Source: Deltaproteobacteria bacterium (GTDB lineage: Bacteria; Desulfobacterota; Desulfobacteria; Desulfobacterales; SURF-7). Taken from it: a DNA stretch of 38,867 nt. The stretch covers positions 1-38,867 of the forward strand of contig JAFDJC010000003.1 of assembly GCA_019307665.1 (NCBI GenBank), written 5' to 3'. Shown here one piece after another: positions 902 to 32,105 of the stretch. Under the pieces are notes generated by a model that saw only the letters and a list, made by a program, of their open reading frames with translations, ran no database searches and was not told the origin of the DNA. The translations under genes and the position numbers were made by a program. The stretch's first letter is position 1. The number at the start of each line of letters is the position of its first letter.

Positions 902-1861
902 ATGAAAAATATACTGATTACCGGTGCTTCAGGCTATTTGGGGACAAGACTGGTTAAACAGATAGGGACAAAAAAAGACATTGGATGCATTGTCGGTGTT
1001 GATATTGTCCATCCCGTACAGGCAGACGAAAATCTCCTTTTTTACAAAAAAGACATCCGTGACCCAGGTATTGGAGAACTGATGTCTGAACACAACATAG
1101 ATACGGTCTTTCATCTTGCATTTGTGGTTAAACCGATACATGACCTTAAACTAATGCACGATATCGATTATAACGGTACACTAAACGTCTTAAACAACTG
1201 TCATGAAAAAAACGTCCGTCAGGTTATCGCCACGAGCAGCACACTTGCATACGGCGCGCATAAAGATAATCCCGAAATACTTACTGAAGAAGACCCGTTG
1301 AGGGGTAACAAAACCTATCCGTATGGCTATAACAAGGCACTTTCGGATATCTTGATGCAGGATTTTTCAAAACAGCATCCCGACATAATATTAACTATTC
1401 TCAGGCCATGCACGGTTTTCGGCCCCAGCGTCAACAACTATGTTTCTCGGATGCTGTTCATGCCTGTAGCCGCCAGTGTACTTGGCTATAATCCCCGTGT
1501 GCAGTTCATTCATGAAGATGATTTTGTAAATGCCTGCATGATTGCAATGGAAAAACAAGCGACAGGCGCATTTAATATTACAGGAGATGGAACACTCACA
1601 ATCCGGGATATCGCGAATATGATAGGAACCAGACTCCTGCCTGTTCCTGCATGGATATTGTATCCTAAACTGGAGCTACTGTGGCGGCTCCATTGTCCGG
1701 GAATAGAAGTTAACAGCGGATATCTTGACTATGCCAGATACCCATTTATTGCAGGAAACAATAAGGCAAAGCAGGAACTCGGGTTTTATCCTAAATACGA
1801 TTCAAAGCAGACACTTGAAATAACTGCCATAAGCAAAAAACGAGGGCGAAAAAAATGTTAA
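902..1861 (+). CDS. NAD-dependent epimerase/dehydratase (extended SDR)
   Basis: MKNILITGASGYLGTRLVKQIG Rossmann motif; ATSSTLAYG and YPYGYNKALSD (YxxxK) motifs. Start chosen at the internal ATG 902. Confidence 0.88.
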   Translation: MKNILITGASGYLGTRLVKQIGTKKDIGCIVGVDIVHPVQADENLLFYKKDIRDPGIGELMSEHNIDTVFHLAFVVKPIHDLKLMHDIDYNGTLNVLNNCHEKNVRQVIATSSTLAYGAHKDNPEILTEEDPLRGNKTYPYGYNKALSDILMQDFSKQHPDIILTILRPCTVFGPSVNNYVSRMLFMPVAASVLGYNPRVQFIHEDDFVNACMIAMEKQATGAFNITGDGTLTIRDIANMIGTRLLPVPAWILYPKLELLWRLHCPGIEVNSGYLDYARYPFIAGNNKAKQELGFYPKYDSKQTLEITAISKKRGRKKC

Positions 1862-2340
1862 GACCTAACAGAAAAGACAGACTCCATGCTTTTGACATTA
1901 AAAACAATTTTCTAACCGTCCTTTTGCTTACCGCCGTTTTCTTTGCAGGATTTATTATCAGCCTGAATCTCAAAATTCCGGGTGCGGTATCGTACATCCT
2001 TTGCTGGGGCATATCCTATCTGATTTTATTTATGGGCACATGCAGAAACTGTGTCTACTATGGCAGGAAATGTCCAATCCCGCTTGAAGGAAGCTGTGTC
2101 AGTTATTTTTTTAAAAAAGGCGAAAACCAGTTTGGTTACATTTCACTTTTGTGGGCAACAATAGCATATATTTTTCGTGTTTGTATACCGGTTTATATAA
2201 TTTTCACGGAGCAAATGATAACGTTTGGTGCTTTCTATTTTTTTATGCTTGCCATGTTCTGGATTGTCCACCTTTGTTTTACAGGATGTCCTAACTGCGT
2301 AAACTATCAATGCCCTTTAAACCCCGAACAGGAGAATTAA
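1855..2340 (+). CDS. Small multi-TM membrane protein with two Cys motifs
   Basis: 161 aa, hydrophobic segments, motifs CRNCVYYGRKCP and GCPNCVNYQCP; overlaps the upstream stop by 7 nt. Confidence 0.7.
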   Translation: MLRPNRKDRLHAFDIKNNFLTVLLLTAVFFAGFIISLNLKIPGAVSYILCWGISYLILFMGTCRNCVYYGRKCPIPLEGSCVSYFFKKGENQFGYISLLWATIAYIFRVCIPVYIIFTEQMITFGAFYFFMLAMFWIVHLCFTGCPNCVNYQCPLNPEQEN

Positions 2341-2409
2341 TACGCCAAACAGGAGAATTAATATGCCAAACAGGAGAATTAATATGCCAAACAGGAGAAT
2401 TAATATGAA
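2326..2409 (+). repeat. Four tandem copies of a 21-bp unit carrying an RBS (AGGAGA) and, in three copies, an ATG
   Basis: Unit AAACAGGAGAATTAATATGCC; copies at 2326-2346 (ATACG variant, contains the upstream TAA stop), 2347-2367, 2368-2388, 2389-2409. Confidence 0.95.
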
Positions 2410-4555
2410 TGATAACATCTGGAGAGACAAGTACGGTGTATGCCATGTAGAAGGAAAAGAAAAGAAAGACGTTTTCGGCCTGATGGGATATGCACACGGC
2501 AGAGACAGGGGAATGCAGCTGCTTCTAATGCGTATTTTAGGAAAAGGCCGTGCCTCAGAGCTTCTCGATTCCAGTGATGAAGTACTTGAAATCGATAAAT
2601 TCTTCCGTAGAATGAACTGGGCGGGCTCTACTGCTTCAGAAATCGATAATTTATCTCCGGAAGCAAAAGAAGTAACCGACGAATACTGCAAAGGCGTCAA
2701 CAGGGCTTTTTCAGAAAAAGTCCCTTGGGAGTTTAAACTTTTTGGTTATCAACCGGAGCCGTGGTGTACAGAAGATATTATTCTGATTTCAAGGATGATA
2801 GGATATCTGACACTTGCACAGTCTCAGGGTGAAATGGAAAGGCTTTTGATCGAGTTTGTCCAGGCAGGAATGGATGAAGCGAGGCTGAACGAACTGTTTC
2901 CAGGGATATTAGGGGGGTTAGACATTGACCTCATTAAAAAGATAGAACTGCAGGAACGAATCGTATCGCCGGTATCTCTCTGGAACTTAGCTGCTCCTGT
3001 GATGATGGCATCAAACAACTGGGCGGTATCAGGCAAAAAAACGGTTTCCGGAAAACCTATCCTTGCCAATGATCCTCATCTGGAAGTAAACAGGCTCCCT
3101 AACGTCTGGTATGAAATAGTGTTAAAAACAAAAGACAGTTACGCCATGGGTGGAACAATGCCCGGTATCCCGGTCCTTCTTATCGGCAAAACTCCGAACC
3201 TTGCGTGGAGTGCAACTTACACATTCATGGACGGAACAGATTCGTGGATTGAAAAATGTAAAGACGGTAAATATATGCGTGAGCCCGACCAGTGGATACC
3301 ATTTACCGAAAGAGAAGAAATAATAAAAAGAAAGAAAAAAGATCCGGTCAAAATAGTTTTTTATGAAAATGGTCATGGTGTCCTTGAAGGCGACCCGAAT
3401 AAAGAAGGGTACTATATTACAACTGCATGGGCGCCCTCTATGTCAGGCGCCGTAACCTTGAATAATATAACAAAATTGTTAGATATAAAAACGGTTGAAC
3501 AGGGCATGGATATTGTCAGCCGGATAGAAACATCCTGGAATCTCATCCTGGCGGACAGCCAGGGCAATATCGGTTATCAAATGTCGGGTCTGATGCCGAA
3601 AAGGAGAGAAGGTATAAGCGGGTTTGTTCCTCTTCCCGGATGGGAAGAGAAAAACGACTGGCAGGGATTTGAAAAACCTGAAGACCTTCCAAGATGTTAT
3701 AACCCTGAATGCGGTTACTTTGTTACATCTAACCAGGATCTTAACGAATACGGCAATGTGAACCCGATTAATGTTGTTATGGGGCCATACCGTTCAGACA
3801 GAATCGGAAAACTTCTTTCAGAAAAAAATGACATCACATGTGAGTACATGTATCAACTGCACTATGATGTCTTTTCAACACAGGCAGAATCATTCATGAA
3901 GATTCTTGCGCCGCTTCTTCCCGACACAAAACAGGCTGAGATATTAAGGAACTGGAATCTTGAGTATGCAGCGGATTCCGAAGGCGCATTTCTCTTTGAC
4001 CAATTTTATAAAAATCTTTACCTTGGTGTTTTTGGCGCAAATGGTTTTGGTACAGAAGCAGTGACGTATCTTGATAAACATACAGGCATATTTAACGATT
4101 TTTACATAAACTTTGATCGCATACTCCTTTCTGAAAAATCAGTCTGGTTCGGCAACAGGACAAGGGAAGACATTTACATTCAGGCTGCTGAAAAGGCGCT
4201 GAACACCCGGCCTGAAAAATGGGGGGATGATAGAAAAGTCATCATGAAAAACATCCTTTTTGACGGAAAACTTCCAAAGTTCTTAGGATTTGACCGCGGG
4301 CCTATAACCATTATCGGAAGCCTGGCCACACCACACCAGGGACAGATTTTTGAAAGTGTGGGCAGGCAAACCAGCTTTGCGCCGTCATTAAGGATGGTTA
4401 CTGATCTTTCATCAGATGCTATCCATACCAATTTGGCAGGCGGCCCTTCTGATCGAAGGTTCTCAAAGTGGTACTGCTCGGATCTTGAAAACTGGATATC
4501 CGGGAAATACAAAAAACTTAGTCCAAACGATTCTGAAAAATGCTATAAGTTCTAG
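2405..4555 (+). CDS. Penicillin acylase (Ntn hydrolase) family protein
   Basis: ORF 2363-4555; MASNNWAVSGKKTVSGKPILANDPHL is the conserved SNNW nucleophile region of the family. Start could be 2363, 2384 or 2405 because of the repeat. Confidence 0.88.
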   Translation: MNDNIWRDKYGVCHVEGKEKKDVFGLMGYAHGRDRGMQLLLMRILGKGRASELLDSSDEVLEIDKFFRRMNWAGSTASEIDNLSPEAKEVTDEYCKGVNRAFSEKVPWEFKLFGYQPEPWCTEDIILISRMIGYLTLAQSQGEMERLLIEFVQAGMDEARLNELFPGILGGLDIDLIKKIELQERIVSPVSLWNLAAPVMMASNNWAVSGKKTVSGKPILANDPHLEVNRLPNVWYEIVLKTKDSYAMGGTMPGIPVLLIGKTPNLAWSATYTFMDGTDSWIEKCKDGKYMREPDQWIPFTEREEIIKRKKKDPVKIVFYENGHGVLEGDPNKEGYYITTAWAPSMSGAVTLNNITKLLDIKTVEQGMDIVSRIETSWNLILADSQGNIGYQMSGLMPKRREGISGFVPLPGWEEKNDWQGFEKPEDLPRCYNPECGYFVTSNQDLNEYGNVNPINVVMGPYRSDRIGKLLSEKNDITCEYMYQLHYDVFSTQAESFMKILAPLLPDTKQAEILRNWNLEYAADSEGAFLFDQFYKNLYLGVFGANGFGTEAVTYLDKHTGIFNDFYINFDRILLSEKSVWFGNRTREDIYIQAAEKALNTRPEKWGDDRKVIMKNILFDGKLPKFLGFDRGPITIIGSLATPHQGQIFESVGRQTSFAPSLRMVTDLSSDAIHTNLAGGPSDRRFSKWYCSDLENWISGKYKKLSPNDSEKCYKF

Positions 4556-14579: not shown

Positions 14580-16520
14580 ATGACCTTAAAAAGAAATATT
14601 TATCTTGATATGAAGACACTTGAGAAGGCAAGGGAAATTCTGTTCACATCGTTTCCTTTGTCTTCTTTTCTGACAAAAGAGTCCGTACCGGTTGCAGATG
14701 CTGTCGGAAGGGTTTTGGCAGAAGCTGTTTTTGCCAAGATTTCTTCACCGCCATTCCATGCCGCAGCAATGGACGGCATTGCAATAAAAGCTTCAGATTC
14801 ATTTGGTGCAGCAGAAAACCATCCGATTGAGTTTATATCCGATAAAAATGCATTCTATGTAAATACAGGCCATGTCCTGCCTGAAAATACCGATGCGGTT
14901 ATTATGATAGAGTACGTAAATCGGAAAGATGATAAAAGACTTGAAATTGAATCCCCTGCATATCCCTGGCAGAATATAAGAAAGCTCGGGGAAGATATTG
15001 TGGCCACAGAACTGCTTTTTCCTGTAAATCATAAGGTGACACCATACTGCATAGGCGCACTTCTTTCAGCAGGAATCACATCTGTTGAAGTCAAGAAGAA
15101 GCCAAAGGGCCTTATTGTTCCAACAGGTTCAGAGTTGATAGATGCAGACAGTGCACTATCCGTCGGATTAAAACCAGGGCAGCTAATAGAATCGAATTCC
15201 CATGTACTCGCCAAACTGATTGAGTCATATGGCGGTGCATTTGAAAGAAAAGGCATAATCCGGGATGACATAGGGCAAATTGAGAAGATCATATCTGATG
15301 CTGCAGAAGATAAAAACTGTAACTTTATTCTAATCTGTGGCGGTTCTTCCGCAGGCTCTCACGACTTCTCCAAGGCATCAATCAACAACCTGGGAACAAT
15401 TCTGGTTCACGGCGTTACGATAATGCCCGGCAAACCGGTTATCATTGCGGATGTAAATGGGAAGCCTGTTTTTGGGGTTCCCGGTTATCCGGTATCGACA
15501 ATCATAGCTTTCGAGCAGTTTATCGGCCCCATGATCGCAATGATGCTTGGGCAATCTGACAAGGAAAAAACAACCATCAATGTTGAACTGACCCGGAAAG
15601 CAGCTTCCAAGCTTGGTATCGAAGAATTTCTTCGTGTCAAACTTGGCAAAATAGGCAAAAGGATTGTCGCCACATCCCTGCCCCGTGGTGCGGGAAGCAT
15701 TACCACCATTACCGAAGCTGATGGTATCATAAGAATTCCCAATCATATTGAAGGACTGAACGCACACGAACCTGTAAAAGCCGAACTCTTGCGCCCTCTT
15801 GCTTCTATTGAGAACACTATAATTGCCACAGGAAGTCATGACAACACCCTTGATGTTCTTGCAGACCTTCTGAAAGCTTCGGGAACCGGGATCACTCTTT
15901 CGTCAAATCATGTCGGCAGCATGGGTGGACTTATGGCGATTAAAAAAAAAGTCTGCCATATTGCAGGTTCGCATCTTCTAGATACTGAAGACGGCTCATA
16001 TAACATCTCATGGATTAAAAAATACCTGCCGGGTATTAATATAAAACTTGTCAACCTTGTATCAAGGGAACAGGGTCTGATAGTAAAGTCCGGGAATCCA
16101 AAAAATATTCGCAGTCTCGAAGATATCGCAAAAGATGATATTATGTTTATAAACCGCCAGGCTGGCTCCGGAACAAGAATTCTACTTGATTACAGGCTGA
16201 AAAACTACGGCATCGACCCTTCCAAAATAAAAGGTTATGAAAACGAAGAATTTACACACATGTCTGTTGCAGCAGCTGTTTTAAGCGGTGCCGCCGACAC
16301 AGGGCTTGGAATACATGCGGCAGCGACAGCACTTGATCTGGACTTTATCCCGGTTGTTACAGAGCAGTATGATCTTGTCATCCCAAAAGAGCACTTTAAA
16401 ACAGAGATGATCCAAAAGCTTCTTGATATTATCAACACAGATACCTTCAAATCGCGCGTTCGCGCTCTTGGAGGGTATGGAACTGAGAATACCGGAAAAC
16501 TGATAAATGAAATTACATAA
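14580..16520 (+). CDS. MoeA domain fused to C-terminal periplasmic-binding-protein-like domain
   Basis: FHAAAMDGIAIKAS, VPTGSELID, ICGGSSAGSHDFSKAS then a ~220-aa segment (TGSHDNTLDVLADLLKASGTGITLSSNHVGSMGGLMAIKK...) typical of the PBP_like fusion. Confidence 0.9.
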   Translation: MTLKRNIYLDMKTLEKAREILFTSFPLSSFLTKESVPVADAVGRVLAEAVFAKISSPPFHAAAMDGIAIKASDSFGAAENHPIEFISDKNAFYVNTGHVLPENTDAVIMIEYVNRKDDKRLEIESPAYPWQNIRKLGEDIVATELLFPVNHKVTPYCIGALLSAGITSVEVKKKPKGLIVPTGSELIDADSALSVGLKPGQLIESNSHVLAKLIESYGGAFERKGIIRDDIGQIEKIISDAAEDKNCNFILICGGSSAGSHDFSKASINNLGTILVHGVTIMPGKPVIIADVNGKPVFGVPGYPVSTIIAFEQFIGPMIAMMLGQSDKEKTTINVELTRKAASKLGIEEFLRVKLGKIGKRIVATSLPRGAGSITTITEADGIIRIPNHIEGLNAHEPVKAELLRPLASIENTIIATGSHDNTLDVLADLLKASGTGITLSSNHVGSMGGLMAIKKKVCHIAGSHLLDTEDGSYNISWIKKYLPGINIKLVNLVSREQGLIVKSGNPKNIRSLEDIAKDDIMFINRQAGSGTRILLDYRLKNYGIDPSKIKGYENEEFTHMSVAAAVLSGAADTGLGIHAAATALDLDFIPVVTEQYDLVIPKEHFKTEMIQKLLDIINTDTFKSRVRALGGYGTENTGKLINEIT

Positions 16521-25498: not shown

Positions 25499-26206
25499 TT
25501 ATGAAAATCTGCTTAAAAAACCTGATACAACCGATACAACAAGAATAACGGCGGTAAATCCTATACAGCCGGCCCCGATAAAACGATGGAATACATTTTC
25601 TCTGGTTTTTTGTTCATACCCCAAAATATAACCCAAAACTATTCCGGCAGCAATTCCTCCACCATGCGCCCAATTATTAATTCCAGGTATAATCAGACCG
25701 AAAACAAACAATCCGATCACCCAACCCCTGACCTGCCTGAAAAGGCTGTTTCCAAATACATCGCCCCGGCTTTTTCCATAATACAGCAGGGTTCCGATCA
25801 GACTGCACACCGAAGCTGATGCTCCTATTGTAAAAGCCACTCCAGCAAGATTTGACAGAAAAAATCCTGCGATGCTCCCAAGAATGTAAATGGCAGACAT
25901 TCTCCATATGCCATACACCCTGACAACAAACGGCGCAATCTGTTTGAAAGCGGCCATATTAAAAAAAATGTGCAGTATTCCGCCATGAAGGAAGCCGGCT
26001 GAAACAAGCGACCACCAGCGATGGTAGCTTCCTACAGGTATTGACCCGGTAGCGCCCATGGCAAAAAGGCTATCGCTCCCGGGCGATAAAAAGGTTAAAG
26101 GATTAGCGGACAGCCCGGGAATCTTTCTACTGAAAACAATCGACACGATAAACATAAATATGTTTACACAGATCACTCCTTTAATAAATTTGTCGTTATT
26201 TTTCAT
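25499..26206 (-). CDS. Rhomboid family intramembrane serine protease
   Basis: HGGILHIFFNMAAF, TIGASASVCSLIG (Ser), INNWAHGGGIAAG (His). Confidence 0.88.
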   Translation of the reverse strand: MKNNDKFIKGVICVNIFMFIVSIVFSRKIPGLSANPLTFLSPGSDSLFAMGATGSIPVGSYHRWWSLVSAGFLHGGILHIFFNMAAFKQIAPFVVRVYGIWRMSAIYILGSIAGFFLSNLAGVAFTIGASASVCSLIGTLLYYGKSRGDVFGNSLFRQVRGWVIGLFVFGLIIPGINNWAHGGGIAAGIVLGYILGYEQKTRENVFHRFIGAGCIGFTAVILVVSVVSGFLSRFS

Positions 26207-26235
26207 TACTTGTTGTTATTTTTAATTAAGACCGG

Positions 26236-31956: not shown

Positions 31957-32105
31957 GTGGCCCAGACAACTTGTTGTCTGGGTGCAAAGCACAAGAAGCT
32001 TTGAATGGGCGTAAATTTTGAGAACAGCACAAGAAGCTTTGAATGGGCGTAAATTTTGAGAACAGCTTCTTGCCTTTCGGGCACCGGCAACGAGTTGCCG
32101 GTGTT
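31957..32105. repeat. Composite element: two perfect hairpins flanking a 38-bp tandem duplication
   Basis: CCCAGACAAC-TT-GTTGTCTGGG near 31961-31982; AGCACAAGAAGCTTTGAATGGGCGTAAATTTTGAGAAC at 31988-32025 and 32026-32063; CACCGGCAAC-GA-GTTGCCGGTG near 32081-32102. Confidence 0.8.

Follow-up and report, generated by a model that had tools for sequence, protein, structure and literature searches.

A tandem array of translation initiation regions at the start of a penicillin-amidase-family gene in an uncultured Desulfobacterales bacterium

In an uncultured Desulfobacterales bacterium, the start of a penicillin-amidase-family (acylase) gene lies within four head-to-tail copies of a 21 bp unit, each with an SD sequence and three with an in-frame ATG. 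The array probably arose in this lineage when the junction of two neighbouring genes was duplicated in tandem; it would then have grown to four copies through replication slippage and been kept because it is of little harm. The DNA analysed (the window, 38 867 nucleotides) is contig 341 of metagenome bin G000, which comprises 3.46 Mb in 434 contigs and is 91 % complete with 7 % contamination.

Structure of the repeat array

In its best register the unit is CCRAACAGGAGAATTAATAYG and the array occupies positions 2324–2407, between the ORF at 1855–2340 and the acylase gene. Tandem Repeats Finder reported 2327–2407, with a period of 21 bp, 3.9 copies and 98 % matches. An earlier, sequence-only reading had described four near-identical tandem copies at 2326–2409. 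This is the same array with the register shifted by 2 bases, and both Tandem Repeats Finder and direct reading bear the description out. Four copies at 98 % cannot be due to chance. The features referred to below are:

1855..2340, + strand, upstream gene, a 161 aa cysteine-containing, membrane-protein-like ORF
2324..2344, + strand, repeat copy 1, CCGAACAGGAGAATTAATACG, comprising the upstream gene's native 3′ end (CAG GAG AAT TAA in codons) and an SD; ACG at the start position
2338..2340, + strand, TAA stop codon of the upstream ORF, within copy 1
2345..2365, + strand, repeat copy 2, SD and ATG at 2363; would add MPNRRINMPNRRIN, 14 residues
2366..2386, + strand, repeat copy 3, SD and ATG at 2384; would add MPNRRIN, 7 residues
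2387..2407, + strand, repeat copy 4, SD and ATG at 2405, the ancestral acylase start; all readable homologues start here, with a single SD
2405..4555, + strand, gene of the penicillin amidase family (Ntn hydrolases), 716 aa when read from the ancestral start, with a conserved SNNW nucleophile region

Copies 2–4 are mutually identical (CCAAACAGGAGAATTAATATG), and copy 1 differs from them at two sites, with CCG for CCA and ACG for ATG. AGGAG is present in all four copies and is followed 7 bases downstream by ATG in three. As the sequence-only reading had stated, the ATGs at 2363, 2384 and 2405 have correctly spaced SDs and lie in a single frame, the unit is exactly 7 codons with MPNRRIN as the added peptide, and the first copy contains the stop of the upstream gene. 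No stop interrupts the shared frame of the ATGs.

The size and identity of the array (21 bp, 3.9 copies, 98 %) are those of a minisatellite or variable-number tandem repeat (VNTR), for which units of about 10–100 bp and high identity are expected. With a 21 bp unit and all ATGs in the same frame, it falls outside the frameshift type of phase-variable locus, where the period is not a multiple of three. The array is absent elsewhere in the genome, where two other sites, both single, match one unit with 2 mismatches. A dispersed repeat family was ruled out, as the array has no second copy in the genome. Elsewhere in the window, a rhomboid-like gene (25499–26206) has a 20 bp tandem duplication across its start codon (26190–26228, − strand, 89 % identical, no SD), and a perfect 38 bp repeat is present in 2.1 copies at 31988–32066.

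The acylase gene and its native start

The gene had been called penicillin-acylase-like and is a genuine member of the penicillin-amidase family. It matches PF01804 (E 5.7e-144) over residues 18–720 of 730 and profile positions 3–667 of 675, i.e. over the full length. The stretch from residue 217 on lines up with solved beta chains from their residue 1, with serine at the beta-chain start and the SNNW context conserved. Only about 4 residues separate the native start at 2405 from the Pfam domain, so that any extra residues fall outside the conserved domain.

Acylase homologues were obtained by protein search, and those with a readable start were compared. More than 20 of them (61–83 % identical proteins) have a single SD and a single start that aligns with 2405, and the array is in none; their proteins have a few residues and then IWRD, as in the form starting at 2405. 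The sequence-only reading had proposed counting repeats across strains. The count does differ between lineages, and it does so in that the array is absent from the relatives. The extension was rejected as a signal peptide, MPNRRIN being polar and basic and the homologues shown beginning directly with the conserved domain. One homologue (L027) has an unrelated, perfect four-copy array of a 21 bp unit (TGAAAGGTGAAAGCTCGAAGC) at 3871–3955, a short distance upstream of its SD.

The upstream gene and the ancestral junction

The 161 aa upstream ORF had no match in Pfam or NCBIfam. The gene is rare in the order, being found in 5 of 146 genomes; besides the window's own genome, four genomes of the order carry orthologues, and it is missing from the family relatives examined. 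Three of the orthologues have the C-termini CPLNPEHK, CPLNPDYADN and CPLNPDYQGIS, against CPLNPEQEN for the gene in the window. Because the upstream orthologues stop at the same place as the gene in the window and the acylase homologues start at 2405, the upstream gene was taken to have its native end in copy 1, and the acylase its native start in copy 4. The ancestral junction was thus probably ...CAGGAGAATTAATATGAATGAT... (CCGAACAGGAGAATTAATATGAATGAT), in which the final codons of the upstream gene contained the SD; 63 bp would have been inserted later. From the same ends and starts, we infer that the ancestor had TAA one base before ATG (TAATATG). With stop and start adjoining in this way, translation of the acylase was probably coupled to that of the upstream gene.

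Tandem arrays elsewhere in the genome

To assess placement, Tandem Repeats Finder was applied to 1.04 Mb of this genome, and the arrays were compared with random placement within the same coding class. There were 87 tandem arrays, 44 of them non-coding. Initiation regions were covered by 4 arrays against a mean of 2.8 under random placement, and 34 % of trials reached four (P = 0.34); as genes were called by a simple ORF rule, these values are approximate. A preference of tandem arrays for initiation regions was therefore not found in this 1.04 Mb, and the proposal of the sequence-only reading that the array is a tuning device gains nothing from its location. Besides the acylase array, the four on initiation regions are:

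L121 (G000:C336) 2739–2851, 36 bp, three copies, 85 % matching, SD and in-frame ATGs at 2777, 2813 and 2849, before a phasin-like gene
L205 (G000:C277) 15066–15097, out-of-frame 16 bp duplication GGAGGAGTGAAYAATG in two copies, at a gene start
L110, 20 bp, two-copy array on an initiation region

L121 is apparently an older array built on the same plan as the acylase array, and the neighbouring paralogue of the phasin-like gene starts at the position of its last ATG.

Survey of initiation-region arrays across the class

A single strict pattern was searched in 391 genomes of the class, namely two AGGAG–ATG pairs that share one spacing (6, 7 or 8) and are separated by 3–33 bases. At spacings 6 and 7 the identity between the two spacers was bimodal, with a chance peak at 1–3 and, separately, a spike of fully identical spacers (21 of 84 at spacing 7 and 18 of 76 at spacing 6). 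This spike indicates that real tandem duplications of initiation regions recur. The arrays found sit on unrelated genes.

For the frame count, inspection of the flanks was used to exclude coding repeats, TGCTAAAATGAAATTTTAGCA-type hairpin repeats and arrays that lacked an ORF. This left 23 gene-start arrays, including the acylase array, with a period divisible by three in 11 and not divisible in 12. The in-frame share was compared with one third (P = 0.11, one-sided); a stricter identity cut gave 9 of 17 (P = 0.075). Selection for the 7-codon period was therefore not significant among these 23 arrays. Arrays of at least three copies occur out of frame (22 bp × 5 in G047, 19 bp × 3 in G327 and 28 bp × 3 in G295) as well as in frame (18 bp × 3 in G164 and the acylase array), and an in-frame length is thus no general requirement. 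The G047 array (L226, G047:C40:4746–4847) has five 22 bp copies of AGGAGGATATTATGTCTGAATC before an ORF of >500 aa, and every upstream ATG opens a 9-codon ORF that terminates inside the array.

A family of hairpin repeats, (A)AGGAGTGCTGAAATGAAATTTTAGCAC, whose letters include ATG and an SD-like stretch, forms arrays of 36–44 bp in the large genomes G172, G295, G389 and G162 (L170, L171, L173 and L181), and looks like an intergenic palindromic element. In a family relative (L189, G009:C6), a three-copy array of the 15 bp unit GGAGTGATTNNATGT at 3030–3076 lies upstream of a gene start.

Origin and effect of the array

The ends of the unit have no homology to the flanks, and the first duplication, of the junction between the neighbouring genes, would therefore have been illegitimate. 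Later enlargement may have occurred by simple slippage between the 21 bp repeats. With the 63 bp added, the native start would have come to lie 64 bases beyond the stop and two more starts would have arisen in frame, while the start in copy 1 decayed to ACG. Because copy 4 retains the original start and the other starts are in frame, the array could be tolerated. Ribosomes could begin at each of these ATGs, and the enzymes made would be almost alike, differing in whether they carry 0, 7 or 14 additional residues of polar, basic character.

Given their good spacing, AT-rich surroundings and low predicted opening cost, each of the three ATGs should be usable; in the four-copy form this cost is 3.5–6.1 kcal/mol, whereas it is 8.0 for the ACG copy. 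An initiating ribosome covers about 30 nt. Starts 21 nt apart are closer than this, and neighbouring starts would compete rather than add. Any gain in output from the repeated starts is probably small, 21 nt being too close for two initiation complexes. Judged from the sequence, coupling to the upstream gene is probably looser with the array in place, and N-terminal forms with 0, 7 or 14 extra residues would be possible; the net effect, looser coupling together with mixed N-termini, is likely to be modest.

A role as a variable-number repeat for tuning acylase output, with slippage adding or removing initiation modules, more SD–ATG pairs raising 30S capture and yield, and isoforms differing by multiples of 7 residues, is unlikely. 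The identity of copies 2–4, the 7-codon period without a stop and the presence of L121 (12 codons, three in-frame ATGs) in the same genome are all in keeping with such a role, as is a predicted opening cost at the last start of 3.5 kcal/mol in the four-copy form against 5.6 in a single-copy form. However, copy number alters the predicted accessibility of the last start by only 1–2 kcal/mol and without a monotonic trend, half of the arrays elsewhere are out of frame, as is a third array of this genome with its 16 bp period, and location is at chance level. What speaks for tuning is the anatomy of the array; the placement and frame tests fit chance and lend it no further support. A wider proposal is that initiation-region arrays in Desulfobacteria are expression rheostats driven by slippage, a class not yet described, in which each copy adds a start site and thereby either extends the N-terminus in frame or opens a short ORF upstream. 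The acylase, the phasin-like gene and the five-copy G047 array would be examples, but the proposal is improbable.

We also think it doubtful that the insertion was favoured because its own initiation sites free acylase translation from termination upstream. The reconstructed junction TAATATG fits this, as does the loss to ACG of the coupled start in copy 1 while the uncoupled starts are intact, but the argument turns on one substitution in one copy, and the other relatives, with different upstream sequence and no such junction, offer no comparison. Mis-assembly of the copy number, conceivable in a fragmented bin of 434 contigs with 7 % contamination, is very unlikely, as an ordinary read is longer than the 84 bp array, two sites set copy 1 apart, and the array runs into native gene ends on both sides. 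Two points weigh against the preferred explanation, a tolerated junction duplication: the in-frame share is slightly over one third, so that there may be some selection for frame, and the identity of copies 2–4 could reflect recent turnover, as in an active variable repeat.

Relationship to known repeats and significance

Like bacterial minisatellites and VNTRs, the acylase array has short identical head-to-tail units, is lineage-specific and was likely enlarged by slippage; unlike them, its unit is a complete initiation region, and it is known here from one genome of the genus. Repeats engineered into ribosome-binding sites by Egbert and Klavins in 2012 were synthetic and reportedly varied the spacing between SD and start. 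They share with the acylase array a repeat near the SD whose length could act as a tunable element, whereas in the acylase array that spacing is constant and whole modules are repeated.

The 5′ UTR of Moraxella catarrhalis uspA2 contains 6–23 copies of AGAT (cited in PMC4679880). This too is a tandem repeat upstream of a start codon whose copy number could set expression, but AGAT units have neither SD nor ATG and precede one start, while the acylase units carry both, so that the N-terminus changes as well. In marine Beggiatoaceae, TAACTGA heptamer repeats precede start codons (PMC4679880). These are likewise direct repeats at gene initiation regions of an environmental sulfur-cycle bacterium; however, they constitute a single heptamer family spread across the genome and bear little resemblance to an SD, and the Desulfobacteria arrays are unrelated single cases.

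No described case of a natural repeat of a whole initiation region, with tandem SD and start sites, was found in the open-access literature searched. The underlying process, tandem duplication in tolerant DNA, is ordinary. For annotation, caution is needed, as the longest ORF (start 2363) carries 14 residues that are absent in relatives. Duplication of a start site is a simple route to a new N-terminus or to lost coupling to a neighbouring gene, and the survey provides a catalogue of natural repeated start sites, in 2 to 5 copies and both in frame and out of frame, whose effect would be directly measurable.
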